Origin: Ascidia mentula
Lineage: Eukaryota; Chordata; Ascidiacea; Phlebobranchia; Ascidiidae
Reading direction: 5' to 3'
Assembly (NCBI GenBank): GCA_947561715.1
Contig: OX387198.1
Span: forward strand, 16,926,001-16,990,000
DNA length: 64,000 bases
The number at the start of each line of letters is the position of its first letter. Position 1 is the stretch's first letter. The notes under the pieces are model-generated. The model did not search any database. It was not told the origin of the DNA and saw only the letters and a program-made list of their open reading frames with translations. This document shows positions 8,678-61,403 of this stretch, piece after piece. The position numbers were made by a program, and so were the translations under genes.

Positions 8678-11600
8678 ATGGACAAGTATGAGAAAGTGAA
8701 AGTTGTTGGAAAAGGAGCATTTGGGTGTGTATTTGTATATTTAACCTTATTTGTATAATTAAATGATTGCAAGACTGAAAAGTCTTGCTCCTTGTAAGAC
8801 ATCATTTTAATACCAGCAACAAATATTTTTGCATTGGTACTACATTCTATAAAGCCACAGACTTTGGACATCCATCGAGCAATGTCAGCTTGTTTTATAA
8901 AATCACCGGGAGTTAATGTCACCTACATTGCCTTCAACAAAAGCCCAATATACAATACTGAAATTGATTGTGTGGCAAATGACGTTTTAGTTGTGACTTT
9001 TTGACTAAATAGTGTGACAAATGTATTCACAATACCTCAGGCAGCTTGGGATGAAATTCATATTTTGACAAGTCATGGTCTTCATTTGTTGATGTTTCTT
9101 TTGCATCCATTATTTCACTGTTTGGTTTGTTAGGTTGGTGAACCTTGCAATGAGACACATGGACAAGAAGTTACTCATATTGAAAGAGATTTCCATGGAA
9201 GATCTTTCTGCTGAAGAACGTGCAAGTTCACTCAACGAAGTTCAAGTTTTGAAGAAGGTCTTGTCGTAATTCATTCTTGCCATAAAAATGTAAACTAAAT
9301 TACATACACAAATATCGTTACGTTTAACACATTTATACAAGTATGTGCCTATTTACTAAAAAATACACCACTAAAATAAAAAGTAGTAATGAAAGCACAA
9401 TGTCCAAGTTTATATGTTTTGCCAAAACTTGTGTTAATAATGTAAACGTAAGTTAATTTGTAGGTTTTGAACCATCCCAACATAATCCGATACTATGAAA
9501 ACTTTCTTGAAGGAAACAAACTTGTTATCGCCATGGAATATGCACAAGGTTGGTTCATTGAAAATATCACTAAAGCTGATTTGACTTTAATGAAAAGCAA
9601 AAATCCTGTTTCAGGTGGAACCTTGCACGATTACTTAAAGCAGCAAAAAAACAATCTTAAGGAAACGGTAAATTAAAACTTGTAGTCATTTAAAAAAATA
9701 TTTTACCCTATGTAATATTATTTACAGAAAGTTTTAAGTTTGTTCATGCAAATTGTGGAGGCACTACAACACATACACTCACTCAATATATTGCACAGGG
9801 ATTTAAAAACTCAGAATATATTGCTTGATAGAAAGTGTACTGTGTGCAAAATTTCCGATTTTGGGATTTCAAAGATTCTCAACACGAAAACAAAAGCATT
9901 CAGTGTACGTTGAGATTTTGGACTTGGCTTGTAGAACTTTATCAATTTGTTTTTGTTGAATATATTGTAAAACTTGGTAATTGCCCCAAAACAAATTATG
10001 GCTGTTTTTTAAGCAATCAAATTAAATTAAAAGCTGCAGACAGGGTGTGTACACGCACTGTTTCGACCTGTAATGTCTCATCAGTGCAGGTGTTGAGTGG
10101 CACTGTGCTAGCTTTTACACTAGCAGGCACACTAATCTCCATTTTGTGGTACCTTTCGGTCAACGTCGAACTGCAGAGTACCCTATACTGAGTACCGATA
10201 ACAGAAACGACGAACCACTGTGGAGCGCACTATGGACAAACGGATCTGCTTGGTAACCGATAGTGCAAAAGGCAAAAAACACCAATGCAATATATGGTTG
10301 AAAACAGTGCGCGTACACACCCTGTCTGCAGCTTTCCAATAGTATGGCTTTTTTTGCACATAAATTAAATTAACATGTCTAAAATATGAAAATGTGTTTA
10401 TTTTTACCAACAAATTTTTTGTGTTCGTCATTTTTGTTGAATGAGATGAACTATTTTTAGGATGAATTGGAGTACTTACTGTATACGACTAACTAATTGC
10501 AACATGATTTAGATTGTGGGTACCCCATGTTACATTTCACCAGAACAATGCAAGGGAGATCCTTACAACCAAAAAAGTGATATTTGGGCTTTGGGTTGCA
10601 CTCTCTATGAATTGCTAATGCTAAAAAAAGCATTTGAAGCTCTGGTAAACATTGTGGCATTTTAGACATTTTTATGTAAAGTTGTCAAATTAATTAAATA
10701 TACAGAAAAAAATCATCACAAATGTATAAAATTAAATAAACCATCAAGTGGTACAGTTGTATAGTTTGTTTAGAAATCTTAAACTTTTGTATTTTTCTCA
10801 TACATTTCTAACACAAGAAATCTTTTTGTAACACAGAACCTTCCAGCACTTGTAAACAAAATTGTGAAAGGCACATACAATGCTGACTTTCCAAAAACCT
10901 ATAGTACTGCTGTTATCGATATGTTAAAACTAATGCTAAATGTGGATCCAACAGCAAGACCTTCTGCTCACGAACTTATGACACATCCTGTCCTCATGTA
11001 TTCACAATTGGATATTTACTGCAATATTGGGGCTGTAGAAGTCAAGTAAGTTCATTATATGTGCAAAAAAAGCCATAATAATATTGGCAAGCTGCAGACA
11101 GAGTGTGTACACGCACTGTTTCGACCTGTGAGGTCTTATCAGTGCAGCTGTTGCAGTGGCACTGTGCTAGCTTTTACGCTAGCAGGCACACCAGATTCCA
11201 CTTTGTGGTGTCCGGTCAATGTCGATCTGTTGGGTACCCTATACTGAGTACCAAACAACAGAGACGAACCACTGTGGAGCGCACTATGGCCAAACGTAAC
11301 TGCTTGGTAACCGATATCGCTAAAGGCAAAACACCAATGCAATATATGTGCAAAAAAAGCCACAATACTGCAACAGCTGCACTGATGAGACCTCACAGGT
11401 CGAAACAGTGCGTGTACATACCCTGTCTGCAGCTTGCCAATATTAAGTAAGTTCCTTTCCAGTGTTTTCATGGTTTCATAAATTGCTATTATAATGTTGT
11501 ATGCTATTGGAAAAGTGTACAAGCTATTTTCAGCAATAAACTTTTGTTTAGAAATGCAAAAACTTCATCTATTCCTGTTGGAGTTCGCAGAAAAATTGGG

Positions 11601-16402: not shown

Positions 16403-17600
16403 AGGGGAAAGTCGTGTAATTTGGACCCTGCGTGTAATTTGGTTTACCCGTTTTTTTTAAAATATACGCTAGATGGCGAAAAATCTTTTGTACAGCTTGA
16501 AAGAAGACCCGATAAAACGGGAAAAGCAGACGAGTTGAAACTGTGCGCAGTACTGCCCGGTAGTTAGAAGAGGAATTGTAAAAAATCTCCAATTGATATT
16601 TGTTTTAAAAATTAAACTGTTAGTGATTATCTCCCTACTGTGTATTGCAAATCCAGCTGGGCATGGTTTTTGCGTTATATAACTGTAACTGCTTTCGGTA
16701 TATTAAGCCCAATCTACTACTGCTTCTCAAGAGTAAAGTAGAGTAGGTACAAAAAATGTGTTGATAGTGTGTAATTTGGACCCCTATGATGTGTGTAATT
16801 TGGACTGGGCATTAAATATGTCAACACGAGAGTCTAGAAAATCTAGGAATGTATCTGAATTGGTCGGAAGAGGCAATGCAACTGAGTAATAAAGTCAGTT
16901 ACTGAAGGAAAATTAGGCAAAGACCTATAATGTACCAAAAACCACATTAAGGAGACATGTTGAAGGCAAAAATATGCATGCTGTGGCCTCCAAGAAACAC
17001 ATAGGAATGTGCACAGACCAGACCTTCCCGAAGATTTAGAACATCAACTGGTTGAACATGTCTGCAGCTCTTCAATTATTATGGCTTTTTTGCATAACAT
17101 TGTAGTTGTTTTCAATGGTTGTAATGTTTTTTGCTTTGAATATCTTTATTTTATGGTATTGTTTTGCAGTGTTCAAGTTTGTTTGTCATTTTTAGTTATT
17201 TTACTGTTTCATATTTTAGAAATACTGTTTAATAAAACATATGAGCTCAAATTAAATATTGTGGAAATGTACAAAAAATTGTGACAATGTTTTTTGTGTA
17301 AGGTTGTCATTACTTTTTAGCAACTTAGTGAAAGAGAAATCACATATGGATTGTGAGTGGTCCAATTTACACACACTACTGGTCCAAATTACACACCGAG
17401 TGTGTAAATTGGACCACTCGGTCCAAAATTTTTAATTACTAATTATTCCCTACATGATAACAACTAGAATCTGATTTTTTGCTTGACAATAGTTTGGGTG
17501 ATAACATACCAAATCGTGTCAATAACTCTTCTGATCAACTACTATATTTTTTTTATTGGGGTTTTAACTTAAGTGGTCCAAATTACACGACTTTCTGTTT
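16403..17600. mobile_element. Decayed pogo-like DNA transposon
   Basis: A terminal inverted repeat with AAAGTCGTGTAATTTGGACC is present at 16408-16427 and inverted at 17575-17594. The GTGTAATTTGGACC word recurs inside, near 16432, 16768 and 16787, and inverted or palindromic near 17366-17420, as if marking repeated transposase-binding sites. At about 16930-17060 a broken frame encodes NVPKTTLRRHVEGKN and, after a frame change, LPEDLEHQLVEHV. These resemble the psq-type helix-turn-helix region at the N-terminus of pogo/Tigger transposases. The DDE catalytic domain is missing, so this is a non-autonomous remnant. Confidence 0.7.
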
Positions 17601-21589: not shown

Positions 21590-22945
21590 GCCTGAATGAA
21601 GCCAGCAGTTCAGCCAATCGTGTCTTGTGAAAGTGATAACAATTTGCATATTGGGAAAACTAACTTCAACTGGAATCACGTGATGTTAAGCGGGATGACG
21701 AATTTTTCGCGTTAAACAGAACCATAAGGCGTTATGGACTGCAATATCCATCAACTAGATACTAGAAAATAACTTTCCTGGTCTTCTTCACGCTTTTTTT
21801 GGTACCGAGATATCAGGAGATCATTTGATCCACATGGTCAACATTTGCCATATACTGAAATGACCTTGTTTGGTAACGCGCGTTTCCAGTGTCCATGTGT
21901 AGTGAATGCCATTGATCTCAGACTCGTCTCTGAGTAATGCGAATATCATTTCCTTCAATGTTTTATTTTCTAGACTGTATATATCCATATCCCAGCAATA
22001 TCAAGTCACATTACGCCTTTGATGCCGCATACTTTGTAGGTTTTATCCTTAAACTCTAGTCTGCTAAGATAGTCTGCATACTTTAACGTCAATAGCGATG
22101 TAATCACCAAATCAGTACAATTCCTTCCAACTAGCGTCAAGCGAGCTATACACAGGTATTATATGTCTAAGTATATCTGTGCTGTGCAACCATCGGGGAT
22201 TAAAGAATTTACATTTGAAGTAAAGGTATGTTGTTGAGAGCTGCAGGGTGTACACGCTGTTTCGACCTGTAAGGTCTCATCAAGTTATGTTCTGATAAGT
22301 AGAAAACTATCCCTAGGCATACATTGGCCGAAGAACGGGTTGTGTATTGTCGGATCTAACGATCAAAGGCACCTTTGTGTCCACGACATCTGTGTTCAGA
22401 CAAAGCCAAAATACACCTCAAATTTCTCTCTCGAAATTGGTTTCCATCTTGACGCCTCGAATTGCGGGAAAACACTGCGCTAGATAAATGTTGATATATC
22501 AGTTTGTAATAGTTGCGATGTGATCCAACAAGGTATTTAAAATGGAGATTATTTATATTCGTAGGGAGACTGGGTTACTTATTGCCGCTGTCCTTGATTT
22601 CTAATGTAAACCCATAAGGTGTGAGGCGCCTTCAAGCGTCATCACACTTCTATTGCTTTCGTTACCTCGTAACGTTGGTGTAGATTACCTGCATTGACGT
22701 TGACGGTCTGTTTTCGTCTGTATTACATCGACTTCGCTTTTACAGCGAGAGATACCAATCCGACCCTTCGTCTACATCGCTTGCTTTCATAATTTGTCCA
22801 AGCACATTTAGTGCTGTTCACTGCAATGTGCCGTAATTTTTCTTCGCTCTGTTTTCAGTCATACTCAAGCTTGTCATGCTTCAATGCTCACAAAGAGAAA
22901 CACATCACGGGTTTCCTTCGGTTGCATGTACTGCTCCTGTCTCCC
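21590..22945. repeat. Duplicated unit U, copy 1
   Basis: The same sequence recurs at 26790-27625 plus 29040-29896 (copy 2, split by a Harbinger element) and at 45705-47006 (copy 3). Shared landmarks include CTGAAAGTGATA, ATCATTTGATCCACATGG, ACTGTATATATCCATA, TGCGCTAGATAAATG and GTCATGCTTCAATGCT. At 22240-22285 it contains a decayed minus-strand hammerhead unit: the core C is changed to T in TTGATGA, and the cleavage site is lost. I find no protein domain in the unit. Confidence 0.7.
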
Positions 22946-24460
22946 AAATTTAAAAATACTGCATAACACATAACATGCTGAAATATGAACAAATTATACA
23001 GTTTTATTACGTCTGAGATGTTAGATAACTTAAATGTTTTTATACAGAGCCGAGCAAATGATATTATTTTTTGCGAAAGTCTCTGTAAAATAGAGTTGCC
23101 TCATCCTCGTCCCGAACGTTGTTTGTAAACAAAAGTTCTCCAGTTTCGCTGTCCACATAATCCTTATACGCAATGCTTTTGATTGGAGTGAAACCTTTGG
23201 ACACAGCAGTTTTGTATGAGGGTGTATTTATTGTAAGTACAGTCATCAGTTTGCAGTTTTGTTTTAAGGTTAACTTCTCTAAAGTGGTTGAGGTTAGGTG
23301 TAAAATTCCCTTATTTCGTAGGTTTGGAATTACGCAAGTCGGTCCACCCTCAGCGTACACATCGACGTTGAACTTGGAGAAGAAGTCGATCTCAAAAAGA
23401 TTGTAAAATCGTGTGAGAGCTTGGCACTCTTTTGAGGGTTGAAATCCACGTTCTCTTAAATAACGATCCACGTCAATTTTGGGTCGGTTTCTGTTGTGTA
23501 ACGTAGCCATGTTAATAGCAGCAAGCTCATCTGGTTTTTGAAAAATACCAATAGCAAGATTTTGCTTTAGGGCAAGTAAACAACGGTATCTATGAAACTG
23601 ATATGTTTCTTGAGGAGAAACTCCAGACATTTTGTAAACTATTTCCAGATTTGTGTAATATTCCTTGATGAAGTTGAGAACAACAGAGGTATCTTGAAGG
23701 GAAAACCGCTTAAGTCGAAGATTAAACATTTTTGTATATAAAATAAATACACCCTGAATAGAGCAAATAGAGAATTCCTGAAACAAATGCAAAAACATTC
23801 ATTTATGGAACATAAAAATACGAAATAATTTACAGTATGGATACTTACACTCGAATGTGTCTATTTGAAATCAAGAGCTTGCAACTTTCGCTACACATAG
23901 TTGTGACTTGAAAAATCATCAAGCTTGCAAGTATCCTTACTACTAAATATTATAATTGTTATCACCTTGTACTTTAATACCGAACTTAACACAGTATACC
24001 CACTATTCAATAAATTTAAAAAGGTTCAATATATTCCAAACAGCTTCTGTTACGCTTTTGCAGTTTTATTTTGGCGTAAACTAAATTAGTCACTTACGTG
24101 TCACAACAAATGAAACAATTGAGGAAAAATAAGATGACCTTTCAGAAAATTGCCAGAACTTACTATTATAGACAAATGTCATTACTGAAAAAAACTTTCA
24201 AACCTGACAAAACATTGACCCAATTACAGGTTACAAGTATATTTGTAGACTGCGAACCAAAATCGTTGTTGACTAGCTTGCTGAGCATGACGCAAATTAC
24301 GGTTCGGCGAATACTCAGCACAAAGCGAGACCAATTGCTAGATTGCACCCTTTTGCAAACTGAACCGTGAAATTTTTTTGCCTAAACGAGCTTGCTGTTA
24401 GAGTAGATGACGTCAACTCAAATAAATCCCTTCTTAAATTGAATTTTGTGCAAAGTTTTG
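22946..24460 (-). repeat. Left arm of a large inverted duplication (GNAT unit)
   Basis: This 1.5-kb arm carries GNAT-like copy 1. It is repeated inverted at 25205-26622 and in direct orientation at about 30480-31980. The two arms of the inverted pair are separated by about 745 bp. The arms share not only the coding part but also the 5' intron and about 700 bp of upstream DNA, so the copies arose at DNA level. Confidence 0.8.
23064..23729 (-). CDS. GNAT-fold N-acetyltransferase-like protein, copy 1
   Basis: 221 residues from the ATG that opens MFNLRLKRFSLQD. The layout matches arylalkylamine (dopamine) N-acetyltransferase-like GNAT proteins. There is an N-terminal strand and helix (LQDTSVVLNFIKEYY), a beta strand around LAIGIFQ, an acetyl-CoA loop region around VIPNLRNKGI, and the C-terminal INTPSYKTAVSKGFTPIKSIAY, which resembles the family's 'S..A..K.GF' element followed by a DY-type ending. 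The canonical Q/RxxGxG/A loop is only partly matched (PNLRNKGI), so catalytic activity is uncertain. Upstream, minus-strand GTAAGT (just after the ACATTCGAGT block) and TTTGTTTCAG mark a 5'-untranslated intron ending about 23777. Function is inferred from fold-level similarity only. Confidence 0.65.
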   Translation of the reverse strand: MFNLRLKRFSLQDTSVVLNFIKEYYTNLEIVYKMSGVSPQETYQFHRYRCLLALKQNLAIGIFQKPDELAAINMATLHNRNRPKIDVDRYLRERGFQPSKECQALTRFYNLFEIDFFSKFNVDVYAEGGPTCVIPNLRNKGILHLTSTTLEKLTLKQNCKLMTVLTINTPSYKTAVSKGFTPIKSIAYKDYVDSETGELLFTNNVRDEDEATLFYRDFRKK

Positions 24461-26789: not shown

Positions 26790-27625
26790 TTAGGTCGAGG
26801 TTGCCTGAAACAAACAAGCGGTTTCCATCAAAGTCAACCGTGTCTTCTGAAAGTGATACCAATTTACATATACAGAAAACTAACTTCAACTAGAAGTAAT
26901 GTTAAGATGATAGGCGGGATAACGCGTTGAACAAATTCAAGGCGTTGTGGACTGAAATTTCCATTAACTAGAAAATGAGTTTTTTGGCCTTCTTCAGTTT
27001 TTTTTTGGTACAGGGCTATTAGGAGATCATTTGATCCAGATGGTGGATCCTGAGTCAGGAGTATATTCGTTTTTGTCGACAAAGCAGGCGGGTTTTGAAA
27101 TAGTATCGTGAATTCTTTGTATTCTTCTTTCAATGTGAATCCGCCATGTTGTGTGCTTATTATTTTTACCAATCTTTTATCCTTCCAAACCAGCACAATC
27201 ATTTTTTCGTTGTCCTTTTTGCAATGATAGTAACGCTTCGCTTTACTCCAAGGGGATTTAAAAGTTTTCATGAGTAGTGAATGACATTAATTCTCAGACT
27301 TAGTCGTCTCTAAATAAAGCAAAGAATATTTCCTTGAATTTTTTGTTTTCTTGACTGTATATATCCATATCCCAGCAATATCAAGTCACATTCCTAACTC
27401 TAACTCTTGTAGGTTTATCCTTAAAGTCTAGTCTAAAGTGTGCCAAGATAGTCTGCCACTTCATCATCAATAGCAATGTAATTCCAAAATCAGTACAATT
27501 CCTTCCAACTAGCGTCAAGCGAGTTATACACAGGTTTTATATATCTTAGTATATCTGTGCTGTGCAACCATCAGGGATTAAAGAATTTACATTTGAAGTA
27601 AAGGTATGTTGTTGAGAGCTGCAGG
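26790..27625. repeat. Duplicated unit U, copy 2, left part
   Basis: Direct copy of 21590-22250, continuing at 29040 after the Harbinger insertion. It ends in a remnant of the hammerhead element (GCTGCAG at 27618-27624, with a doubled CTGTTTCG just after it). Confidence 0.7.
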
Positions 27626-27639
27626 TTGTACCCGCTGTT

Positions 27640-28752
27640 TCGCTGTTTCGGGCCTTCGAAATATTCGCCAACGAGTGGCCAAAATCCCAAATGTATTTTC
27701 AATAACTCGTCTAGCACGAGAAAGTCTGTAATTAAAAATGTTCTTGCCAACAGGTAAATGTTTTCCGGGATAGGGTCTCATTAAGTTAGACCGCAATGGA
27801 AAGGAAGCATCACCAACAATACAATATGGTACAAATATATTGGTGTTTGGCAAGCATGCATGACTGGGAATATTTAATTCTCCATCCATAAACTTTTTAC
27901 CAAATTCAGAATTGGCAAACACCCCACCATCACTGCGTCTTCCTGAGTCACCAATATCTATCATCGTAAAGCAATACTGTGCACCACATACTGCAAGCAA
28001 AACAATGCTATGTGTGCCTTTGTAGTTGTAATACTCCGAACCGGCATTTCCAGGTGCTTGAATAATGACATGTTTGCCATCAATGGCCCCTAAGCACATT
28101 GGAAAGTTCCACATGTCATTAAACTCATCAGAAATCCTCTTCCATTCTTCCTCCGTTGATGGTGGTTTGAGAACTTCTGGCATCAGCACATCCCAAAGAG
28201 CTTCACATGTTTCGAATATAATTTTGTTGACAGTTGAGTGCCCCACCCGGAAACTTAAGGAAATGGTTGACTGGGAATCACCAGTAGCAAGATATCTACA
28301 CAATGTAAAGTTAAAATAATTAGTGTTTCACATGACTATGCTGTTGTAAAGTCTACTGCAGTTACCGTAAAGTTATTGCAAGCCTTTGTGCTGGCGAAAT
28401 GGCTTTCCGGTAATGGGTGTCCTCTTTCACTATCAAATGTTCCACTTTGTGTAGCAACTCACAAAAAGTTGCTACATTCATTCGGCAATATTTTTGAAAA
28501 CTTTCCTCATCTTCATACATGTCCTTCACCAAATTAAATTCCCCCAATCTGTCTCGGTCTTGAAAAATAGGTTTGACCCATTCCCTGCACAAATTACACA
28601 TAATATGCATATAGACACATAAAGTTCATTTTGGAGCAACCAATGTACAAACCAACTTACCTTCTGGGGTACAAAATCTTGTACATCAGTGCCACTAACA
28701 ATATCACTTGCTGATTTAGCAGTAATATCACAACTAAATCAAAATTATTCAT
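27640..28752 (-). pseudogene. Harbinger (HARBI1-like) transposase, 3'-truncated
   Basis: DDE_Tnp_4-type transposase in three exons on the minus strand: 28661-28752, 28366-28584 and about 27640-28295. All junctions are GT-AG and keep the frame. Exon 1 encodes a short hydrophobic start ending in ILYPR. Exon 2 has EWVKPIFQDRDRLGEFN and the helix-turn-helix-like region. Exon 3 has the catalytic core: CLGAIDGKHV (first Asp), YCIVGDASFPL (second Asp) and RRVIENTFGILATRWRIF (Glu). The natural C-terminus after IFRRP is lost, and the frame runs on into flanking repeat to a stop at 27587. All three acidic catalytic residues remain, but loss of the left inverted repeat should make the copy immobile. Confidence 0.88.
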
Positions 28753-29896: not shown

Positions 29897-30441
29897 AACG
29901 AGTTGATGGACAAATAAAACTGCGCATTGTTCATTTACAGAGCTTCTGTCACAAGGGCTATTAACTGTTTTATAAAAATCAAAAAGGTATCTTATTTTTT
30001 GCTTCCCTTATAAATCTTGTGACAAGAACAAACAAAAATTTTAATACTTTGGCATATTTTGCGACATGCAATTTAAATTTAAATGCACATAAACTTTCAT
30101 TGACTGCTAAAACACAAACCAGTCATTCAAGAATGTTGGCTGACAAATTACTTCCAAATATATTTCCAAATATATAGAGAATTTAAGAAATGTTTTGTGT
30201 AAGCTGCAGACAGATGGCCACTGTTTCGACCTAAAAGGTCTGATCAGTGCAGCTAGTGTGACTGTCAGACGACTTTGCTGACCAAACGGCCAAGCAAAGA
30301 CTTCCACTTTGTGGTGACTATACAATCACCGTCATCCGTTGGGCATCAAACTAGGTGTAACCTTACGGAGAAAACAAGGTGGAAACACTATGGCCAAGCA
30401 AAGCTCAACCAATAGTGTCGTCTATTTACGGAATATCTGCA
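29897..30441. repeat. Insertion in copy 2 related to 48076-48120 and 49727-49990
   Basis: Relative to copy 1 this stretch is extra. Its first 300 bp match the sequence that surrounds the Penelope insertion (CATTGTTCATTTACA, CATTCAAGAATGTTGG, AAATTACTTCCAAATA), showing the two loci share ancestry beyond unit U. From 30203 it contains a hammerhead element copy. Confidence 0.6.
30203..30440. mobile_element. Hammerhead element copy, core mutated
   Basis: The minus-strand unit at 30203-30257 keeps GAAA, stem II GACCTTTTAGGTC, the GTC site and stem I, but the core reads CTGATCA, a change at G8, so self-cleavage is unlikely. The inner part is longer and divergent from the NEK8 copies, and the right terminal unit is not recognisable. 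Confidence 0.6.
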
Positions 30442-30479: not shown

Positions 30480-31980
30480 CCAAATTTAAAAATACTACAT
30501 AACACATGCCATGCTGAAATATGAACAAATTTTGCAGTTTTATTACGTCTGAGATGTTGGATAACTTAAATGCTTTTATACAGAGCCGAGCAAATGATAT
30601 TATTTTTTGCGAAAGTCTCTGTAAAATAGAGTTGCTTCATCCTCGTCCCGAACGTTGTTTGTAAACAAATGTTCTCCAGTTTCGCTGTCCACATAATCCT
30701 TATACGCAATGCTTTTGATTGGAGTGAAACCTTTGGTCACAGCAGTTTTGTATGAGGGTGTATTTATTGTAAGTGCAGTCATCAGTTTGCAGTTTTGTTT
30801 TAAGATTAACTTCTCTAAAGTGGTTGAGGTTAGGTGTAAAATTCCTTTATTTCGTAGGTTTGGAATTACGCAACTCGGTCCACTCTCAGCGTACACATCG
30901 ATGTTGAACTTGGAGAAGAAGTCGATCTCGAAAAGATTGTAAAATCGTGTGAGAGCTTGGCACTCTTTTGAGGGTTGAAATCCACGTTCTCTTAAATAAA
31001 GATCCAAATCAATTTTGGGTCGGTTTCTGTTGTGTAACGTAGCCATGTTAATAGCAGCAAGCTCATCTGGTTTTTGAAAAATACCAATAGCAAGATTTTG
31101 CTTTAGGGCAAGTAAACAACGGTATCTGTGAAACTGATATGTTTCCTGAGGAGAGACTCCAGACATTTTGTGAACTATTTCCAGATTTGTGTAATATTCC
31201 TTGATGAATTTGAGAACAACAGAGGTATCTTGAAGGGAAAACCGCTTAAGTCGAAGATTAAACATTTTTGTACATAAAATAAATACACCCTGAATAGAGC
31301 AAATAGAGAATTCCTGAAACAAATGCAAAAACATTCATTTATGGAACATAAAAATACGAAATAATTTACAGTATGGATACTTACACTCGAATGTGTCTAT
31401 TTCAAATCAAGAGCTTGCAACTTTCGCTACACATAGTTGTTGCTTGAAAAATCATCAAGCTTGCAAGTATCCTTACTACTAAATATTGTAATTGTTATCA
31501 CCTTGTACTATACCGAAATTAACACAGTATACCCACTATTAAATAAATTTGAAAAGGTTCAATATATTCCAAACAGCTTCTGTTACGCTTTTGCAGTTTT
31601 ATTTTGGCGTAAACTAAATTAGTCACTTACGTGTCACAACAAATGAAACAATTGAGGAAAAATAAGATGACCTTTCAGAAAATTGCCAGAACTTACTATT
31701 ATAGACAAATGTCATTACTGAAAAAAACTTTCAAACCTGACAAAACAATGACCCAATTACAGGTTACAAGTATATTTGTAGACTGCGAACCAAAATCGTT
31801 GTTGACTAGCTTGCTGAGCATGACGCAAATTGCGGTTCGGCGAATACCCAGCACAAAGCGAGACCAATTGCTACGTTGCGCCTTTTTGCAAACTGAACCG
31901 TGAAATGTTTTTGCCTAAACGAGCTTGCTGTTAGAGTAGATGACGTCAACTCAAATAAATCCCTTCTTAAATTGAATTTT
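30480..31980 (-). repeat. GNAT unit, direct copy
   Basis: Direct-orientation duplicate of 22946-24460, nearly identical over the coding frame and about 700 bp upstream, including a plus-strand 90-codon frame (31631) that is probably just conserved by recent duplication. Similarity stops near 31980. Confidence 0.8.
30600..31265 (-). CDS. GNAT-fold N-acetyltransferase-like protein, copy 2
   Basis: 221 residues from the ATG opening MFNLRLKRF, intact to the stop. It differs from copy 1 (23064) at only about a dozen positions, scattered along the frame (for example DVDRY to DLDLY and GGPTC to SGPSC). Same domain reading as copy 1: N-terminal GNAT strand-helix, PNLRNKGI near the acetyl-CoA loop, and a C-terminal SYKTAVTKGFTPI element. 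The same 5' intron signals lie at about 31313-31383. Two intact copies this similar suggest recent duplication, conversion, or a family with retained function. Confidence 0.65.
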   Translation of the reverse strand: MFNLRLKRFSLQDTSVVLKFIKEYYTNLEIVHKMSGVSPQETYQFHRYRCLLALKQNLAIGIFQKPDELAAINMATLHNRNRPKIDLDLYLRERGFQPSKECQALTRFYNLFEIDFFSKFNIDVYAESGPSCVIPNLRNKGILHLTSTTLEKLILKQNCKLMTALTINTPSYKTAVTKGFTPIKSIAYKDYVDSETGEHLFTNNVRDEDEATLFYRDFRKK

Positions 31981-32223: not shown

Positions 32224-32415
32224 CAGAGTGCTGACAACAAGCCTGTAAGGTCTCATCAGTGCAGCTGGTGACTGTGGCACATGGCTAGCTGGTAAACTGG
32301 CAGGCAAACAGATTTTCACTTTGTGGTATCTTTCGGCCAGTCGTCGATATGTTGAGTACCAAACTAGGTACATAGACCTTACAGGTCGAAACAGTGTGTA
32401 CACCTGTCTCCAGCT
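32224..32415. mobile_element. Hammerhead element copy, both units incomplete
   Basis: The left unit (minus strand) keeps CTGATGA and the first stem II strand but has lost GAAA and the cleavage side. The right unit (plus strand) keeps stem II, GAAA, GTC-like CTGTC and CAGCT but lacks CTGATGA. The central GCTAGC block is as in the NEK8 copies. It sits immediately left of a Polinton fragment. Confidence 0.6.
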
Positions 32416-32464
32416 CTCATTGACTACTTTGGATCTTTTGCGCATATAATACAGTTTAGTATAG

Positions 32465-32999: not shown

Positions 33000-34600
33000 G
33001 AGGCAGTTTTGTGCAAAGTACCGAATTAGGTAGAAGGGTTAATTGGGGGATAACATCGCCACCCAAAAACATCTAACCGCTTAATTGCAAAGCTGCCGAA
33101 ATAATTCCGTAACAATAGTTTTACATTAAACAGGGCACAACAAGTGAACATGTGCAACAAACGAATTTTATGTTAATTTGAGCTGCAGACAGTTGGCCGC
33201 TGTTTCGACCTATTATGTCTTATTTAGTTGCGTAATAATAAATCAATTACTGGGTCAGGGTGTTATTGTGGTTAAAGCTTTCATTATCGCTGACGTGATG
33301 TATGAACCTTTAAAACACAGCAGATGCAAACCGTCAATTAAGCATTGCCGTTTTGTCCAATCACAGCAAAAGATAGAAGTAGTCAAATTATGAGGCTTAA
33401 TGACCAAATTAGCTAATTATGCAACAGAGTTATTTTGTCATATACCATATTTTTCCTGGCAGAAGCGTTGCCTACGAGATCGCGCCATAACTGATTTTAT
33501 TAATTCGCCACCATCAACCACTAACGTATTTTTCGCTATATAACTCGAAATTTTGGAAGCATTAAATTAAATTCAATACAAAGGCGAGGTTAGAGGTATG
33601 ACATTACACCCAAAATGACGTCATGTAATGTCCCTGAGCAAAGAACGCACCCTCGCCGTCCATCTGACATAAACTCGTTTTAGTCGAGAATGCAGGTGGG
33701 TTTGAAATAGTTTTTCTGTTTATCATGTTTACAAACTATTTATCTTCCTAAACCAGCAGAATCACTTTTTCGTTGTTTTTTTTGCAAAGGCCTCGCAGTA
33801 ACGCGTCGCTGAACTCCATGGGTTTTTAAAAATATTCTTGTGAAGTGAATGCAATTGATTCTTCTCGTTTGGGTTTGTAGTGATCTGTTATATCAGTCAG
33901 ACCTAGTAACAGTATACTGAAGTGGCGTGACTATGAAAACTTTTTTCTTTGCCAATATTCGCTTTGTTGTCGTTTGTCGGAAATACAAATCTCGATTGAT
34001 TTGTCGAGATCTCCATAACTCAGTTAATAGAGCGTTAGAGCGACTTGTCGGATAATGGTGGCTTTGATCTAGCTCTTTGAAACACCCAGCGGTGCCAGTG
34101 AGCCGATTTTACTTTTCTTGACACAATTTCATGTTTTCAGTGGGAAATTAGTTTTTGTTAGCACTGCAGTGAAGTTTGCAGTTTTGTAGATGCAGTTGTA
34201 GATGACATCGTGCTAACCATTTTGGTTTTATTTTTATTTATTTGCTTATTTTAGGTACATGTAGCTTCGAGTGTTTTGGTGAATTTTATTTACAAAAACT
34301 AATGATGCCTAAATGCAAGCGAAAACGATTGTTCACAATTTTAAAAGATAAACCAACTGACGGTAATCATAAACACTTTGTTTCAAACACTTGTATCAAC
34401 CATTGGAGCATAACAAAAAAGTAACAAACAATAACAATGCAAAATCGTTACTCTATGTGTTACAAGTTTTGATATTGCTGCTATTCGAAATTGTTGTAAA
34501 TTCGTTTGGCGCGGTTATTGCTTGAACGTTAATCAGACTCAGATTACAAGATCCTGATTATTAATGGTTGCACAATTTAAAGAATGTTTATCATATCTAT
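33000..34600. other. Spacer, one hammerhead remnant
   Basis: No gene supported. At 33181-33230 there is a decayed minus-strand hammerhead unit (stem I, GTC, GAAA and part of stem II remain; CTGATGA has become AAATAA-like). Near 33700-33870 short matches to unit U appear, for example around AACCAGCAGAATCA. Confidence 0.5.
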
Positions 34601-37366: not shown

Positions 37367-37376
37367 CAAAGCGGTT

Positions 37377-37463
37377 GTGTGAAAGCTAGCACAGTGCCAC
37401 TCAACAGCTGCACTGATGAGACCTTACAGGTCGAAACAGTGCGTGTACACACCCTGTCTGCAG
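37377..37463 (+). mobile_element. Solo monomer of the hammerhead element
   Basis: Only 87 bp, flanked by CAAAGCGGTT at 37367-37376 and 37464-37473 (10-bp target duplication). It contains the GCTAGC/CACAGTGCC block and one complete hammerhead. Its left end begins inside the sequence that continues further in the NEK8 intron 5 copy, so it looks 5'-truncated. Its right end lies five bases past the ribozyme cleavage site. Confidence 0.8.
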
Positions 37464-37464
37464 C
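37407..37464 (+). ncRNA. Type I hammerhead ribozyme, best copy
   Basis: GCTGCA (37407-37412), CTGATGA (37413-37419), stem II GACCTTACAGGTC (37420-37432, five pairs), GAAA (37433-37436), a stem III hairpin with about eight pairs and two mismatches, GTC with predicted cleavage after 37458, then TGCAGC, which pairs perfectly with the first strand. Every invariant core position is present. Confidence 0.85.
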
Positions 37465-37899
37465 AAAGCGGTTCTCGTTACTCAAAAGAACGTAATTTTA
37501 AACCTGTTACATCAATTTAAGTTCAATCGCCGTGGCCTCACGCAATTGACTTGTTTCAAATAACAGTGCCCCTTGAAATAGATTGAATCAGTCAAATTGG
37601 AAAACGCGACAGGAAGATTTGTTACGTAGTTTCTATCATCAGGTTTGGGTTCTTTTCGGGTTTAAAAAAGTCACGACTTAATTATAAGAACTATTCACAC
37701 AGCTTAAATGACAAATCCTTGCTGTGATGAGAGGCCACTATAGAACAAGAGATACTCTTTATTCAAAAGAACGTATATTTAAACCCAAGCCACCAATTTG
37801 GGTCAAAGAGAAACACAAAATCTGATAAAATTCCTGCCGTCTATCTGGTGGCTCGTCGGAAAGTTGGTACAAAAAGTCTCCGAGATATTCATAGATAGT

Positions 37900-45704: not shown

Positions 45705-47006
45705 ACCAACAAGATCAGGTCGAGGTTGCTTGAATGAAACAAGCGGTTTCCATCAAAGTCAACCGTGTCTTCTGAAAGTGATAACAATTTACATACATAG
45801 AAAACTAACTTCAACTGAAAGTAATGTTAAGATGTTAAGCGGGATAACGCGTTAAAGAAATTCAAGGCGTTGTGGACTGAAATATCCATCAACTAGAAAA
45901 TGAATTTCTGGGCCTTCTTCAGTTTTTTTTTGGTACAGGGTTATAAGGAGATCAGCAAAGTCGTCTGAAAGTCACGCCAGCTGCACTGATGTAATCTTTT
46001 AGGTCGAAACAGTGGCCATATGTCTGCAGCTTACACAATTCATATTATTGGCTCCACTTTGCTTTGCTATTAGGAGAATAATTGATCCACATGGTGGATC
46101 ATGACATATACTAGTTTTAGTCGACACAGCTGGCGGGTTTTGAAATAGCATCGTGAATTCTCTATATTCTTTTTTCAATGTGAATCCGCCATGTTGTGTG
46201 CTTATCATTTTTACCAATCTTTTATCCTTCCAAACCAGCACATTTTTCGTTGTCTTTTGCAATGACCTTGTATGGTAACGCTACGCTTAACTCCAAGGGG
46301 GTTTAAAAGAGTTCATGTGTAGTAAATGCCATTTATTCTCAGACTTGTTTCTAAATCAAGCGAAGAATATTTCCTTAAATGTTTTGTTTTTTTGACTGTA
46401 TATATCCATAACCCAGCAATATCAATTCACAGTACGCCATGACGGCGTATATTTTGTAGGTTTATCCTGGTTATAAACTTTAGTATAAATGATAGACTGC
46501 TCCCTCACTTTAACATGTCCATCGTTGACATCTCGATTTGCGAGAAAACAATGCACTAGATAAATGTTCATAGGTATATCAGTTTGTTGTGGTTACGATG
46601 TGATCCATCAATGTATTTGAAATAGAACTTATTTATATTTATAGGGTGAATGGATCACTTATTGCTGCGTCCGTGGTCCCTTGATTTAAAATGTAAAAGA
46701 AGATGGTGTGGGTTGCCGAGCGTCATTACACTTGTATTGCTTTCGTTAATCTCGTAACGTTGGTGTAGATTATACCTGTGTTGACGTTTACGGTCTTTTT
46801 TCACCTGTACTTACATGGTCTTCGCTTTTGCAGGGAGAGATGAACGTATCGTCTTAAGCCAATCCGAACCTTCGTCTACATCGCTTGCTTTCGTATTTGG
46901 CCTAATCACTAATATTGCTGTTCATTGCAATGTGTTCCGTACTTCTGAACAACTCGCTCTGTTTCCAGTCGCACTCAAACATGTCATGCTTCAATGCTAA
47001 CAAAGA
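45705..47006. repeat. Duplicated unit U, copy 3
   Basis: Direct copy of the unit at 21590 and 26790, more divergent. At about 45955-46070 it contains an extra insertion with a plus-strand hammerhead remnant (45980-46032; CTGATGT in place of CTGATGA, weak stem II). Confidence 0.65.
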
Positions 47007-48082: not shown

Positions 48083-48178
48083 AGCGAGTTTTTGGGCAAA
48101 TAAAACTGTGCATTGTTCATAATAATGTATTAAAATCCCAAAACAGCGATCTGTAGACAGCTCAGATCGATTTATTGA

Positions 48179-48220
48179 GAGAAAAATATATTTCGCCTAA
48201 AACGGCATCATCAGTTTCTC
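48179..48220 (-). ncRNA. Hammerhead-like motif in Penelope arm
   Basis: On the minus strand: GAGAAA, CTGATGA, a U, stem GCC with loop GTTTTA and GGC, GAAA, a two-pair stem III, then TTTCTC pairing with GAGAAA. Very short stem III is typical of Penelope-type hammerheads. The unpaired U before stem II is a deviation. Confidence 0.6.
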
Positions 48221-48680
48221 CATTTACCAAAACTGCCAAAAAGGAAAAACAGAAAGGAAAAAGTCAAGAATCTAACGCAAAAAGGTTACGCAAGCTAAAA
48301 ATAAATAAAAATTAATAAAAACTATAAAAATATTCGGGTTTCAAGCATTAACTAAAAAATAATAAAAGTATGAATTAACTGCATGTGGTTAGACCTGTCT
48401 GTACTACTTTACTTTCAAAAAACCACTGGCGCTGACACCGAGTGAGCACACAAACATACAGAAGCAACTGAATGTAAAAACAGAACAAAAGTGGAAGGGG
48501 AATGGACGTCACGAACTGCAGACAGGTAGGCCTGTGGGCGAACAGGTGTGACCGATAAGACTCGGTGACTGATAAGACGATAAAAACAGGTTAACAACAC
48601 AGGCAAAGTCATCAACCCATTACAGCGAAAACAAGCGCAAACATAAACATAGTCCTACGGGCGGGGAATAGCAAAAAGAA

Positions 48681-49085
48681 CTATTTGCATGATGGTGTTA
48701 CCATGGTTTGCACATTGATTTGTGCCCGTATTCTGTGCAACCATAAGTCCTCATATAGATCCAAACTCCCTGCAGGTGGTTTTTGCACGAACGTCACGTC
48801 ATAGCAACTTGGGAATATGGGTCTTTGCTGGAATGTTTCGCTATGCTTCTTCAGGTAGTGGTTACCCAGCGCCGTAGCATCGCTATCTAGCGAGCACTCG
48901 AACTGGTACCAAGTAGACCTGTGAGCATTCCAGCGAGTGGAGAACTTGTTTTTCGTCTGCCCAACATACTGGGCTCCGCAGGTTTTGCACGAGGCCACAT
49001 ATATCCCATAGTCGCGACATGTTAATCGCTGACGCAACATTATTCTGCCTTTGGGGGTACACAGGAAGGTAGTTGTGGGCACCAT
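48681..49085 (-). CDS. Penelope GIY-YIG endonuclease domain (partial element ORF)
   Basis: 134-residue minus-strand frame. GIYVASCKTCGAQYVGQTKN holds the GIY and YVG halves of the GIY-YIG nuclease core, with a CxxC knuckle between them. STRWNAHRSTW gives the conserved arginine-histidine helix, and a later SLDLYEDLWLHRIR segment resembles the end of the domain, including a glutamate. In complete Penelope-like elements this domain follows the reverse transcriptase; here nothing upstream codes for it, and the apparent start is probably the truncation point. Expression is not expected. Confidence 0.82.
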   Translation of the reverse strand: MVPTTTFLCTPKGRIMLRQRLTCRDYGIYVASCKTCGAQYVGQTKNKFSTRWNAHRSTWYQFECSLDSDATALGNHYLKKHSETFQQRPIFPSCYDVTFVQKPPAGSLDLYEDLWLHRIRAQINVQTMVTPSCK

Positions 49086-49537
49086 GGGCTCGTGGTTACC
49101 ATGGTGCCCGCACAGCGCACAGCTTGTTTTCGCTGTAACGGGTTGATGACTTTACCTGTGTTGTTAACCTGTTTTTATCGTCTTATCAGTCACCGAGTCT
49201 TATCGGTCACACCTGTTCGCCCACAGGCCTACCTGTCTGCAGTTCGTGACGTCCATTCCCCTTCCACTTTTGTTCTGTTTTTACATTCAGTTGCTTCTGT
49301 ATGTTTGTGTGCTCACTCGGTGTCAGCGCCAGTGGTTTTTTGAAAGTAAAGTAGTACAGACAGGTCTAACCACATGCAGTTAATTCATACTTTTTTTATT
49401 TTTTAGTTAATGCTTGAAACCCGAATATTTTTAAAGTTTTTATTAATTTTTATTTATTTTTAGCTTGCGTAACCTTTTTGCGTTAGATTCTTGACTTTTT
49501 CCTTTCTGTTTTTCCTTTTTGGCAGTTTTGGTAAATG

Positions 49538-49579
49538 GAGAAACTGATGATGCCGTTTTAGGCGAAATATATTTTTCTC
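49538..49579 (+). ncRNA. Hammerhead-like motif in the other Penelope arm
   Basis: Mirror copy of 48179-48220: GAGAAA 49538-49543, CTGATGA 49544-49550, a stem II hairpin 49552-49563, GAAA 49564-49567, and TTTCTC 49574-49579. Predicted cleavage would follow 49573 in an AUU triplet. Confidence 0.6.
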
Positions 49580-50079
49580 TCAATAAATCGATCTGAGCTG
49601 TCTACAGATCGCTGTTTTGGGATTTTAATACATTATTATTGATACGGTGTGCGATCGACAGCCTGCCAGGGGCCTTTGGTTTTTTGATCCAGTTTTGATT
49701 TACTAATCACATTGTGCATTGTTCATTTACAAAGCTTCTGCTACGAGGTCTTTTAAATTTTTTATAAAAATCATCAAAAAAGGTAGCTTGTTTTTGTTTC
49801 CCTTATAAACCTTGTTACAAGAACAGAGAAAAATCGTAATACTTTGGTGTATTTTGGGAAATGCAATCTAAATTTAAATGCACGTAATTATTAACTGACT
49901 CTAAAATACACAAACCAGTAAAGTCATTCAAGAATGTTGGCGAACAAATTACTTCCAAATAGTTAACGGTTGGGCAATTTAAAAAATATTTGCAATATCC
50001 CAGGTTTCCTCGAAACGCAGTTTACTTTATACATTATAAAAACATGAATTGTAATCACAAACCTGTTGTCAATTTTTGT

Positions 50080-53446: not shown

Positions 53447-56423
53447 ATGATGGCCCAGTTTAAAACTAAGTCCCCAGACCTATGTTTTTTGGCTAGTAAT
53501 GAACACACTCACTCACAGTACTATGATCATGCATCACTGGATATGACACTGAGAAATATGTTGGAGAATGATCTATATATTATCCACATTAACATTTGCA
53601 GTTGAAAAAAAACACAAAGATGATTTAGAGAATTGGATATCAAATATGTCTAAAATTCCTGATATAATAATGATAACCGAAACGAGAATGAAGCATAGTG
53701 TTATTTACACCACAGATATTGAAGGGTATGAATTTTGCCACATTGACACAGTTTCTAATGCGGGTGGTGTAGGAATGTACATTAAACAGTCACTTTCTTT
53801 TCACATAAGGCATGACATCACACTCCTTTGTCAAGATAGTGAAAACTTATGGGTTGAATTATCACTTAAGAAACAACAAATTGTCCTTGGTGTAATATAC
53901 AGACATCCCACATACTCTCATGACTCATTCCAAGATGCACTTTCCCAAACCTTACATGATCTTAATAAACATAATATTCCAGTTTATATTGGTGGTGATT
54001 TTAACATTGATTTGATGAAACATAACAGTTCTGACTCAGTGCGCAATTTCATAGATACCCTTGCCTCATACAGTTATACACCTCTGATATGCCAACCTAC
54101 CAGGATAACTCCCCACAGTGCAACTCTAATTGATAATTTTTTCTCTACTAATTCCAATGTAAAGTTTAAATCTGGTATTATTACAACAGACATATCTGAC
54201 CATCTTGGAATATTTATCATACTCCACACAGTAGCCCTCAGTAAACCACTAGAGAAAATACTTGTTAGAGATATGCAACATTTTTCTGCCCCAAACCTAA
54301 TGCAAGACATAAACTTTCTGATCGAAAGCTTAACTCATTCCAACCAAAACCCTATTGATCAATTTACTCATTTTGTCCAAAACTTTATTTCCATTTTACA
54401 ACATCATGCACCACTATCCCACCTGTCCAGAAGAAGAAGGAAACTAGCACAGAAACCATGGATAAGCAAAGCAATATACACTTCCATTAAGAAAAAAAAT
54501 AGACTTTTTCACATGTTATGCAAATCACATTTTTCCAGTATTAGCAAATACAACCAATATAAGGCATACAGAAACCGTTTGAACCATGTAATGAAACAAG
54601 CGAAAATCATTTTTTACAAGAAAAAACTAAAAGGTAGTGAAAAAGACATTGCTGGAATATGGAAAATAATCAACAGTATATTGCAGCGTAAACAGTCCAA
54701 ACCCCATAAACCCACTGTTGTAAGAACAAACCATGGAAATATGTCACATGACCCTTTAATTATATCGAACACTTTTAATTCCTTCTTTGCCAGCATAGGA
54801 AATAGCATTGCACTCTCCATACCGTCTCCAGATAAACCCCTCCCAGCTGTTGCTTTAAGTGGCAATGTGTCTTCATCCTTCTTCTTCTATGAAACAACAC
54901 CAGACGAGATAGAAATGTATATATCCCTTTTAGATGCAACAAAATCGGTACCATCTCATGATATCCCCATTAGGTTCATTAAGCTAGTTAAATACATAAT
55001 TTCACCCTTCCTGTCGGAGGTGTATAACTGGTGTATTCGTAATGGACAATATCCCGTAGTTCTTAAGTCGGCAGAAGTAATTCCCATACACAAAAATGGT
55101 TCTGTGAGTGAGTGCACTAATTACAGGCCAATATCATTATTGTCCCCTTTTGCAAAAATTTTTGAAAAAATTATTCACAGCCGCCTATATAACTACCTTG
55201 AAAAAAGTAAGTTAATTTCACAGCATCAATACGGATTTAGAAGTAAACATTCCACGTCACTCGCCATTTACGACATTTACGAGAAGCTGCTAGAATCTTT
55301 CGACAATAAACAGTTTACATGCGCCATTTTTCTAGACCTGTCTAAGGCATTCGACACCGTAAATCACGAGAAGTTGTTGGAAAAGTTAGAGCGCCGGTAT
55401 GGAATTAGGGGAAATACCCTACACTTAATCCACAGTTACCTTGTAGGTAGAAGTCAATGCACTAGAATAGGAAATTCTGTGTCGGATATTAAACCCATAA
55501 CATGCGGTTGCCCACAGGGTTCGCCATTAGCTCCTTTACTTTTTTTATTGTACATCAATGACCTTCCGCAAGTATCCTCTTTTACAACCAAATTGTTTGC
55601 TGACGACACGGTTCTTTCAATGACCTCCCCTTCACTTATTGACTTACAATCCCGTGTTAACGAACAACTCACAAATGTTGACAACTGGTTAAGGCACAAT
55701 CGACTTTCTCTCAACATTCGGAAAACAAAGTTCCTATTGTTTTCCCCTTCCACCTCAAGCACTGGCAATTTCACCGTCACCATCGGTCATGAAAAACTTT
55801 TGCGATCAGATAATATTAAGTACCTCGGTGTATACATTGATGACAAACTAACCTGGACAACTCACATTCATTATTTAGAAAAGAAATTGTCACAAGCATG
55901 CGGCACTTTTTTTCAGTTGCGAAATTATCTTGACGTTAAAACTTTGAGAAACGTTTACTATTCATTTGTATATTCCCATATTCAGTACGCTATCGGTGCT
56001 TGGGGTGGAGGATCGGCACTCTCACTGAAAAAACTCAACACTATTCATAATAATATACTCCGCTCCATAACCTTTAGTTCCTTTCAAAGCCACGTCACGC
56101 CATTATACAAGAAATTAGATCTCACAAAAATTAGAGACATTTACAAACTCGAACTGGCCAAAGTAATGCACGATTTCCATACCGGCAATCTACCGGCCTC
56201 CTACAACTCCTTATTTTCGTTAGTAGGCACAGTGCACGATCATTTCACAAGAAATGCATCGCAAAAGAACTTATTTCACCCAAGAGTTAACACCACCTTC
56301 GGCTTACGTATGCTAAAACATAGGGGCCCACAGATATGGGAGGAAATAAACCCTTCCATTAGATCGCTCTCCCGTCCATCATTTAAAAAAAAAATCCGCC
56401 AATATTTCACATCTCAGTATTAA
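53447..56423 (+). pseudogene. LINE ORF2: endonuclease and reverse transcriptase, one frameshift
   Basis: The ATG at 53447 opens 52 codons, then TGA (53603-53605) next to an A8 run; a one-base loss there moves the remaining 940-odd codons into the next frame, which is open to 56423. In that long frame the apurinic-type endonuclease occupies residues 1-230 (DIIMITETR, GGDFNID near 141, SDHLGIFI near 214). The reverse transcriptase occupies about 480-760 (VIPIHKNG, NYRPISLLSPF, FLDLSKAFDTVNHE, CGCPQGSPLAPLLF and FADDT near 677, the catalytic aspartates). The C-terminal region carries the usual conserved helical part. Apart from the homopolymer slip no lesion is seen. Confidence 0.92.
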
Positions 56424-59560: not shown

Positions 59561-59578
59561 TGCTTTACGAAAAAAAGA

Positions 59579-59613
59579 ATACACACACACACACACACCC
59601 ACACACACACACA
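59579..59613. repeat. (AC)n microsatellite
   Basis: About seventeen AC units with one CC interruption, just beyond the 3' end of the polymerase gene. Confidence 0.9.
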
Positions 59614-59667
59614 AAGAGAGAAAGTGGTTCGATGCACAACCGACGGCGGTTGTTCAATCTCGGAGGT

Positions 59668-61403
59668 TCACAAATCCAACGGTACGGTGGAAACGCCGTC
59701 GGCCAACACTTTACGTTTACAATAAAATTACCGATTACACTTCGCGATTGTTCGTAGGTGAAAACGGACTGGTTCATGACCCGAAATCCGGTGTTTTTTC
59801 CCGCCACGCTCACGCCGGTATTAAGCACGTCGAGATAGTGCTGAAAAGAAAGCGGGTTTTGGGATTTGTTGAGTCCCTTTGACGTTTGCTTGTGGTCCCC
59901 TTCGCCACCTTTACAAAAATATGTTTTTGCGGCGAGGGCCACAATTCCAGTTCCCCGCCACTCGATCTTAAAAAGACCGGGTGTGCGAAGGTCGGAACGC
60001 TCGCGAACTTTATACAGCACGGATGCTGGATAAACGGACGATGGGAGACACGCGTTTCGACAAACTCGGAGCGATGGAGGTCACAACAAGGCGATGGGAA
60101 CCATTTGTGTTTTTTTTGAAAAAATTCACGTTTCAAGCTGGGGCAAACCACGTCATCGAAACTGTCGGCCACCAAAGCAATATAAAACGAATCGGTGTCC
60201 GAAACTGTCAACTCAAAATTACAACGGTCGACATAACGATCGATAAAATCGTAGTAGAACTCGAGCATGTGCAATTTAGCATATTGCAAACAAAGAAACC
60301 AACATGAACCGGTAGATTTTGATGGATTGTTTGCTTTTTGAGTTTCATCTCGTACAGATCGTCGTTAACCTTTTCGACGTGCTTGAAGCGGGGAGAGTTG
60401 ATCAATCTTTTTGCGTTTTTTTCGCACAGATACTTTGTATCCAAATGTTTTCGTTTGTTCGTGATCACTTTACCGTAACTGGCATTGCCTGGAAAAGGAC
60501 GAAGAAGATTAACACAAAAGTTACATAAAAAGCACAACAAAAACATTTGACTAAACAACAATATTTACCGAGTAGTTTGAACGTGTCTCGGATTAGCTTT
60601 TTCTCAGGTTCAACATCCCCCAAGCGACGTGCTTTGGTGACCGCGTCCGTGAACGATTCGAAACAACGGTTGGGTTTGTAGCATATGACTTGGTAAATGT
60701 GACTGACAACCAGACCGTGCGATAAACACCACCGTAACAAAGGGGTGGCGAGCAAAATTTTGTCCCCTTTAAGACTCGCGATTAAAGATCGACGTTTGGT
60801 AGTTAGAATGCCGTGTTTTTCTGCAAAATTTCTCATGTATTTCCCGATATCGGCACGCGAAATATCTATGTTTTTGAAAATCGGACACATCTCGCTAAAA
60901 TATTCGCGCTTTTCGGGTAGAACAGCGATATCGCATTCGACCAAGCCAAACAGGGTGCCGGAACGGACAGCCTCGAGTACGTTAGCAAAATTCCGAACCG
61001 TTGGAATGCGAAGTTTTTGAAACATCCGCCCAGCAACGAAATCGCGCACGGACTTGTCGCCACGCTGCAGTGCGTACCATTCACACTCCCATATGTGCAA
61101 AACCTCGTACCCAAGCCGCCGAAAATAGGCCGTGACTTCGGTGGTTTTTTCGCGGGCAACCACCGGGGCATTTTTATCTTTGTAACGAAAACGCGATGAG
61201 CACGTTTCACACCCGTGAAAATAGCAACCGTGAAACTGAAAAATTTTTCTGTGTTCGTGACAATAACCGTCCACCGGGATGTTACGCTGACCTATACGAA
61301 CTTCGCCTTTATTGAACTGATAATGCCCAGAACCCTGCAATAACGGCTCACCACAAAGCCAAAGTAACCCAGGCTGATTTAACTTATTGGACGTCGTGTT
61401 CAA
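59668..61403 (-). pseudogene. Protein-primed DNA polymerase B, C-terminal portion, with intron
   Basis: Minus-strand DNA_pol_B_2-type polymerase. The 5' exon (60569-61403) has DGYCHEHRKIFQFHGCYFHGC. A GT-AG intron of 80 nt (60489-60568) interrupts the NASYGK motif; because 80 is not a multiple of three, splicing is needed to keep the frame. Downstream are LPVH, then a frameshift near 60280, SDTDSFYIAL with the two catalytic aspartates (60188-60199), a second frameshift near 60030, TPGLFKIEW and KGLNKSQNPL, and a third frameshift close to the C-terminus, where the expected ending and TGA (59668-59670) lie in another frame. The exonuclease and N-terminal parts are absent. Upstream of 61403 an acceptor-like AG suggests a further intron. 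Confidence 0.88.

Follow-up and report, generated by a model that had tools for sequence, protein, structure and literature searches.

What is an 87 bp insert that consists of little more than a hammerhead ribozyme, and what placed it in the genome of the ascidian Ascidia mentula? The insert lies within the window, i.e., the whole stretch of 64,000 nucleotides that was analyzed (Table 1). The original prediction described a 5′-truncated retroelement insertion flanked by a clean target duplication, and this is supported. The sequence bears out a perfect 10 bp duplication, CAAAGCGGTT, around an 87 bp insert with one type I hammerhead. The parent is a 291 bp unit (retrozyme A), of which the insert contains positions 210-291 followed by positions 1-5, position 1 being the first base 3′ of the cleavage site. 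As predicted, the left end is shorter than in related copies and the right end falls 5 bases past the predicted cut. The first base of the right duplication, a C, also extends unit A (1 bp of microhomology). A copy this short had been called unusual, which does not hold. Locus L053 contains a 43 bp insert with an 11 bp duplication, and the alignments of six more one-ended copies cover 63-80 bp. In a search for an empty site (best 40 of 69 candidates), none of the matches listed crosses the joined flanks of the insertions. A solo copy with one ribozyme cannot free a unit by two cuts, and the window insert is therefore probably a dead-end, 5′-truncated copy of a metazoan non-LTR retrozyme. In itself it is a new, truncated example of a known element type.

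Table 1. Features of the window; numbers in brackets after short and long are end positions past the cleavage site.
Feature	Position	Strand	Basis
Left copy of 10 bp target duplication CAAAGCGGTT	37367..37376		sequence
87 bp insert, 5′-truncated retrozyme A	37377..37463	+	100% match to 291 bp unit
Type I hammerhead ribozyme	37408..37463	+	sequence; sub-threshold RF03152 and RF00008 matches
Right copy of target duplication CAAAGCGGTT	37464..37473		sequence
Head-to-head retrozyme A insertion, duplication ATTAAATTAA, left short (8), right long (37)	10030..10371		alignment extent
Head-to-head retrozyme A insertion, duplication AAGTAAGTTC, left long (40), right short (17)	11056..11445		alignment extent
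Left target duplication TGTGCATTGTTCAT (14 bp) of Penelope-like element insertion	48107..48120		sequence
Head-to-head Penelope-like element fragment, family P1; GIY-YIG match 48915-49010	48121..49712		genome profile match, end reading
Right target duplication TGTGCATTGTTCAT of Penelope-like element insertion	49713..49726		sequence

The hammerhead motif is not a chance match. Its core reads CUGAUGA at 37413-37419 and GAAA at 37433-37436. Stem I (CUGCA/UGCAG, 37408-37412 with 37459-37463) is paired at 5/5 positions and might gain a sixth pair from the first duplication base, C. Stem II is GACCU/AGGUC, and stem III is ACAG/CUGU plus a longer mismatched extension. The site is GUC, with predicted cleavage after 37458. 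The complete core and fully paired stem I of the original prediction are thus confirmed from the sequence. The core pattern CTGATGAGN{3,30}CGAAAC occurs three times in the window, against a shuffle mean of 0.01. Across the whole genome it has 2488 matches vs. 10 for the reversed pattern, and the hammerhead family is therefore real and large. In the Rfam check that had been proposed, RF03152 (28.3 bits, gathering score 56.3) and RF00008 (24.9 bits, gathering score 48.5) fit the insert below threshold, but no family reaches its gathering score in a scan of the whole window. Below threshold, hammerhead models also fit three other places in the window. The predicted hammerhead fold (-12.3 kcal/mol) is not the minimum for the 61 nt considered, the lowest-energy structure being at -18.9 kcal/mol, and the 87 nt show no excess of folding stability over shuffles (z 0.21). 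Within 37403-37463, the stretch GCACUG, which lies partly ahead of the core and partly inside it, is complementary to CAGUGC after GAAA, and the helix predicted from this pairing would inactivate the ribozyme. A similar but shorter competing helix is predicted in subfamily B, described below.

A DNA search finds at least 41 places that are identical across all 87 bp, a lower bound because the best 40 of 1690 candidates were scored. An array at C70:2551296-2554804 contains eight copies in one direction and four in the other, mostly every 291 bp; unit A is therefore 291 bp. A second subfamily, B, has a 285 bp unit that forms an array in L061. The GC contents of the two units are 47.8% and 47.4%. 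On tripled units the longest ORFs starting with M are 70 and 46 aa, i.e., there is no coding capacity. Metazoan non-LTR retrozymes, as described in PMC7229834, are ribozyme-bearing tandem repeats of ~150-450 bp, with units of ~300 bp, a type I hammerhead, GC below 50%, no coding capacity, duplications of more than 4 bp and Penelope-like elements (PLEs) in the same genome. Judged by sequence, our units match them: we find the 291 and 285 bp arrays, a type I core (sub-threshold in Rfam), low GC, no coding, duplications of more than 4 bp and resident PLEs. They differ in that the host is an ascidian, a group absent from the main text of PMC7229834, and in that the window insert stands alone and is truncated. 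That paper leaves the enzyme hypothetical, whereas the junctions described here point to one. An Aurora kinase ORF of this genome looks ascidian: ranked by identity, its nearest named match is Phallusia mammillata (90%), followed by Ciona intestinalis (87%) and Clavelina (84%), although two longer entries labeled as plant, at 64-66% identity, take the first and third places by score. Animal genomes have been known since 1987 to contain type I hammerheads (PMC7229834), and nine are listed for the ascidian Didemnum (PMC8704543). The LTR retrozymes of plants are likewise non-autonomous and ribozyme-bearing, with a circular RNA intermediate in the proposed cycle (PMC7761336). They differ in having a type III hammerhead (PMC7229834), LTRs, a PBS and PPT, 4 bp duplications and Gypsy machinery (PMC7761336).

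We read insertion junctions from 82 of 100 fetched loci and from the window. Of the 95 insertion rows obtained, 69 are independent as judged by shared flanks. The 18 excluded loci are 17 that overlap others, among them every one of the 12 in the C70 array (which enters no junction count), and L035, a look-alike of L034. Insertions less than 60 bp from a locus end were excluded, and a second L053 insertion (ends 16 and 37) was lost when the 95 rows were grouped to 69. The loci were located via the ribozyme or the 87 bp query, a route that misses ribozyme-less copies. A target duplication at the match threshold is present in 32/95 rows vs. 1.15% of 2000 mismatched flank pairs. This leaves 22 independent, duplication-confirmed insertions, with duplications of 9-14 bp (median 12) that are 80% AT, compared with 62% for the window. 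In these 22, each junction was placed where the insert meets the longest matching duplication, a choice that counts up to 8 bp of microhomology as duplication; the alignment edges otherwise lie at 6-19 and 36-56 (28 in L049). Positions were extrapolated past the alignment for L049 (4 and 11 bases), L096 (4), L089 (4), the window insertion at 11056 (2), and L039 and L099 (1 each).

The element-3′ junctions of the 22 insertions fall into two zones. All 33 lie past the cut, 17 of them at 5-17 nt (short) and 16 at 34-48 nt (long); none is at the cut or between the zones. Half of the insertions (11/22) are two-ended and head-to-head, and every one of these combines a short with a long end, the two sites being 23-37 bp apart. 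The other 11 have a single element-3′ end and a variable 5′ break. A short (16) and a long (39) end are likewise found, by alignment, in the C70 array. When the two arms of the 11 head-to-head insertions (one of which gave no arm) are compared for common variants, the own-arm difference is 0.08 (10 pairs) vs. 0.35, but arm truncation and the mixture of subfamilies deprive this contrast of meaning.

The full set of 69 shows the same layout less sharply. With short and long split at position 27, chosen after seeing the data, the 23 two-ended insertions comprise 18 short plus long, one short plus short, none long plus long, and four with an end beyond 60. The 46 one-ended insertions comprise 26 short, 17 long and three beyond 60. 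The nominal chance of at least 18/19 short plus long at 0.5 is 3.8e−5, for a split that was itself fitted to the data. Eight of 92 element-3′ ends lie at 21-35 and seven beyond 60; seven of those eight belong to copies of at most 91% identity, in which the alignment edges are imprecise.

Nested patterns in subfamily B address the ends from the whole genome. Of 100 listed zero-mismatch copies that are perfect to position 22, the match remains perfect up to position 33 in 93, up to 52 in 30 and up to 67 in 29. The large loss in these listed copies is between 33 and 52, with little before or after. The totals at up to three mismatches are 3054 (to position 5), then 325, 166, 99 and 62. These totals alone do not show the gap, because they also drop between 22 and 33, as would be expected from diverged copies and short ends near 20; their first drop is confounded by related subfamilies with other tails. 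Among the retrozyme neighbors listed (100 places of 2488, and 100 zero-mismatch places of 325 matches), the only tail-to-tail pair is C70:6587388+/6587712- (G000:C70:6587388-6587752).

A link between animal retrozymes and PLEs was put forward as a hypothesis in 2020 by Cervera and de la Pena, and in that account rests mainly on co-occurrence, tandem layout and common ribozymes (PMC7229834). In the anole, the purified PLE protein cuts and extends both target strands, and two neighboring sites inside the RNA serve as starts of reverse transcription (PMC11167929). The stretch between the two start sites becomes a tail in the genome, which is said to be common to and unique to PLEs (PMC11167929). 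Bdelloid PLEs have inverted ends, a 31 bp tail and 8-10 bp duplications (PMC3846280). The retrozymes resemble PLEs with a tail and inverted pLTR (PMC3846280, PMC11167929) in their head-to-head ends, one-sided tail, short target duplications, hammerhead near the ends (PMC11167929) and tandem copies. The two-site tail, head-to-head 3′ ends and short duplications are all seen in the 22 insertions and less sharply in the 69. Unlike PLEs, the retrozyme units encode neither an RT nor a GIY-YIG endonuclease, and no similarity was found between these units and the tails of P1 and P2, two PLE families of this genome (local alignment scores of 15-19 vs. shuffle means of 16.0-17.4). With no long ORF in the units, the retrozyme is not itself a PLE, and is PLE-like only at its ends.

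PLEs are abundant in this genome. There are at least 150 GIY-YIG matches (best 150 of 382 candidates scored), and the neighbors within 8 kb among the matches listed form 22 head-to-head pairs and 14 pairs of like orientation, but no tail-to-tail pair. Families P1 and P2 each have an open PLE frame, of 943 and 886 aa, respectively. P2 is above the Pfam cut-offs for RT and GIY-YIG. The RT of P1 scores 28.3 bits, slightly below the cut-off of 29.6, and its GIY-YIG domain scores 23 bits in the genome search (cut-off 22.6) and is absent from the Pfam scan. In the PLE insertion of the window, both ends are element 3′ ends, the left short and the right long as read by eye, and each arm contains a minimal hammerhead. 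All seven PLE loci (six fetched and the window) have 12-14 bp duplications and unequal ends, six of the seven having been picked as head-to-head (-,+) pairs with both outer ends readable. The longest match in 30 mismatched PLE flank pairs is 11. Like those of the retrozymes, the PLE duplications are AT-rich (79%, n = 7). The extra stretch matches the family's own element sequence in 5/7 loci (partly by eye); in P4 and P5 it has no internal unit for comparison. The interval between the two PLE sites, read from offsets, is roughly 28-79 bp. The start sites in P1 are about 69 and 142 nt from the ribozyme (by eye) vs. 5-17 and 34-48 nt in the retrozymes. No cognate PLE was found among the families compared, P1 and P2.

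We propose, with a probability of roughly three in four, that insertion of circular or multimeric retrozyme RNA is the work of a PLE enzyme, and that the window insert is a resulting truncated copy. The tandem 291 bp copies would be transcribed, and by analogy with published retrozymes the hammerhead would either cut the RNA to unit length, with ligation of the units into circles, or leave multimers uncut. The GIY-YIG/RT protein of a resident PLE may then make a staggered cut, 9-14 bp wide to judge by the duplications, in AT-rich DNA. Reverse transcription would begin inside the RNA, at sites that the junctions show to be ~5-17 or ~34-48 nt past the cut, and run through the ribozyme. Priming by both strands, one per site, would yield a head-to-head copy with a ~30 bp tail at one end. 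Priming by one strand and an early stop would yield a solo copy with the layout seen in the window insert. Because the junctions of the duplication-confirmed set are beyond the cut, and the copies align across it, the template is taken to be circular or an uncut multimer. Internal initiation, as for a PLE enzyme, fits the junctions better than a self-cleaved 3′ end, and in this cycle the ribozyme has no part in defining the 3′ end of the insertion.

More broadly, animal retrozymes are probably parasites of PLEs, whose enzyme would take up retrozyme RNA, start at two internal sites and be primed by both strands, so that retrozymes spread across animals by the third class of eukaryotic retrotransposition. 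If so, ribozyme RNAs across animals owe their spread to this class, and a PLE enzyme recognizes retrozyme RNA with which it has so far no evident common sequence. A PLE two-site tail at retrozyme junctions would name the enzyme class and allow a direct in vitro test. Such junctions would, in addition, establish that the 3′ end of the insertion is not set by the ribozyme. Retrozymes would then offer natural RNA templates of less than 300 nt for studies of PLE reverse transcription. We found no report of two-site junctions for retrozymes in the open-access literature searched, and priority is not established.

A narrower version of this reading is that the PLE enzyme inserts from uncut multimeric transcripts, with the ribozyme and circles having no role in transposition. 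We regard this as possible but rather doubtful. The junctions do cross an uncut site, and ribozyme mutants of the anole PLE leave insertion in vitro unchanged (PMC11167929). However, unit-length circles are the form in which published metazoan retrozymes accumulate (PMC7229834), and such a circle spans the site just as well; the present data do not separate circle from multimer.

It is improbable that an APE-type LINE enzyme moves the retrozymes, with the inverted copies arising from twin priming. The window does contain an uninterrupted 951 aa ORF (53568-56423, + strand) that appears LINE-like by eye, and LINEs can make duplications of 9-14 bp. However, twin priming yields an inverted internal piece and no second 3′ end, whereas both outer ends here are element 3′ ends and lie in two zones. 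A poly-A tail is absent from the retrozyme junctions read by eye, those of the insert at 37377 and of L061. The two-site tail is, moreover, called unique to PLEs (PMC11167929).

The original prediction suggested an RNA intermediate with a 3′ end set by self-cleavage, followed by 5′-truncated reverse transcription. The window insert seems to invite this: it is 5′-truncated and stops 5 nt beyond the predicted cut. In addition, L024, one of the 69 insertions, has by alignment an end at position 1, although it lacks a target duplication. The 22 duplication-confirmed insertions contradict this reading, and we consider it very unlikely. An RNA cut by the ribozyme would end at position 0, whereas all 33 duplication-confirmed junctions lie 5-48 nt beyond, in two zones, the long one accounting for 16, and the alignments cross the cut. 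The comparison of 3′ ends across genomic copies that had been proposed thus upholds target duplications (22 independent cases) but places the ends away from the cut. Least credible of all is a MULE-like MITE whose terminal inverted repeats contain a hammerhead by accident: 9-14 bp duplications and inverted ends in 11/22 insertions would suit such a DNA transposon, but we reject it because the other 11/22 are one-sided with a variable 5′ break and the ends vary within their zones with no fixed base, and the tandem units, 8 vs. 4 by direction in the C70 array, also argue against it.

Insertion by a PLE enzyme is therefore the reading that we prefer, and some further observations concern the surroundings of these copies. 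The two head-to-head retrozyme A insertions of the window are near exons that by eye resemble a NEK-type kinase gene. More fragments similar to retrozyme A or B are found at 17059-17091, 22248-22282, 30193-30422, 32242-32453, 33181-33223 and 45952-46064. The loci L045-L051 represent one retrozyme B insertion, with the duplication ATATTTTTAACT, that is seemingly carried within copies of another repeat. The window also contains two near-identical 244 aa ORFs (23064-23798 and 30600-31334, - strand), which may reflect a segmental duplication or a repeat. By eye, an ORF at 27587-28303 (- strand) is transposase-like, and ORFs at 59565-61403 (- strand) resemble pieces of a large DNA transposon.
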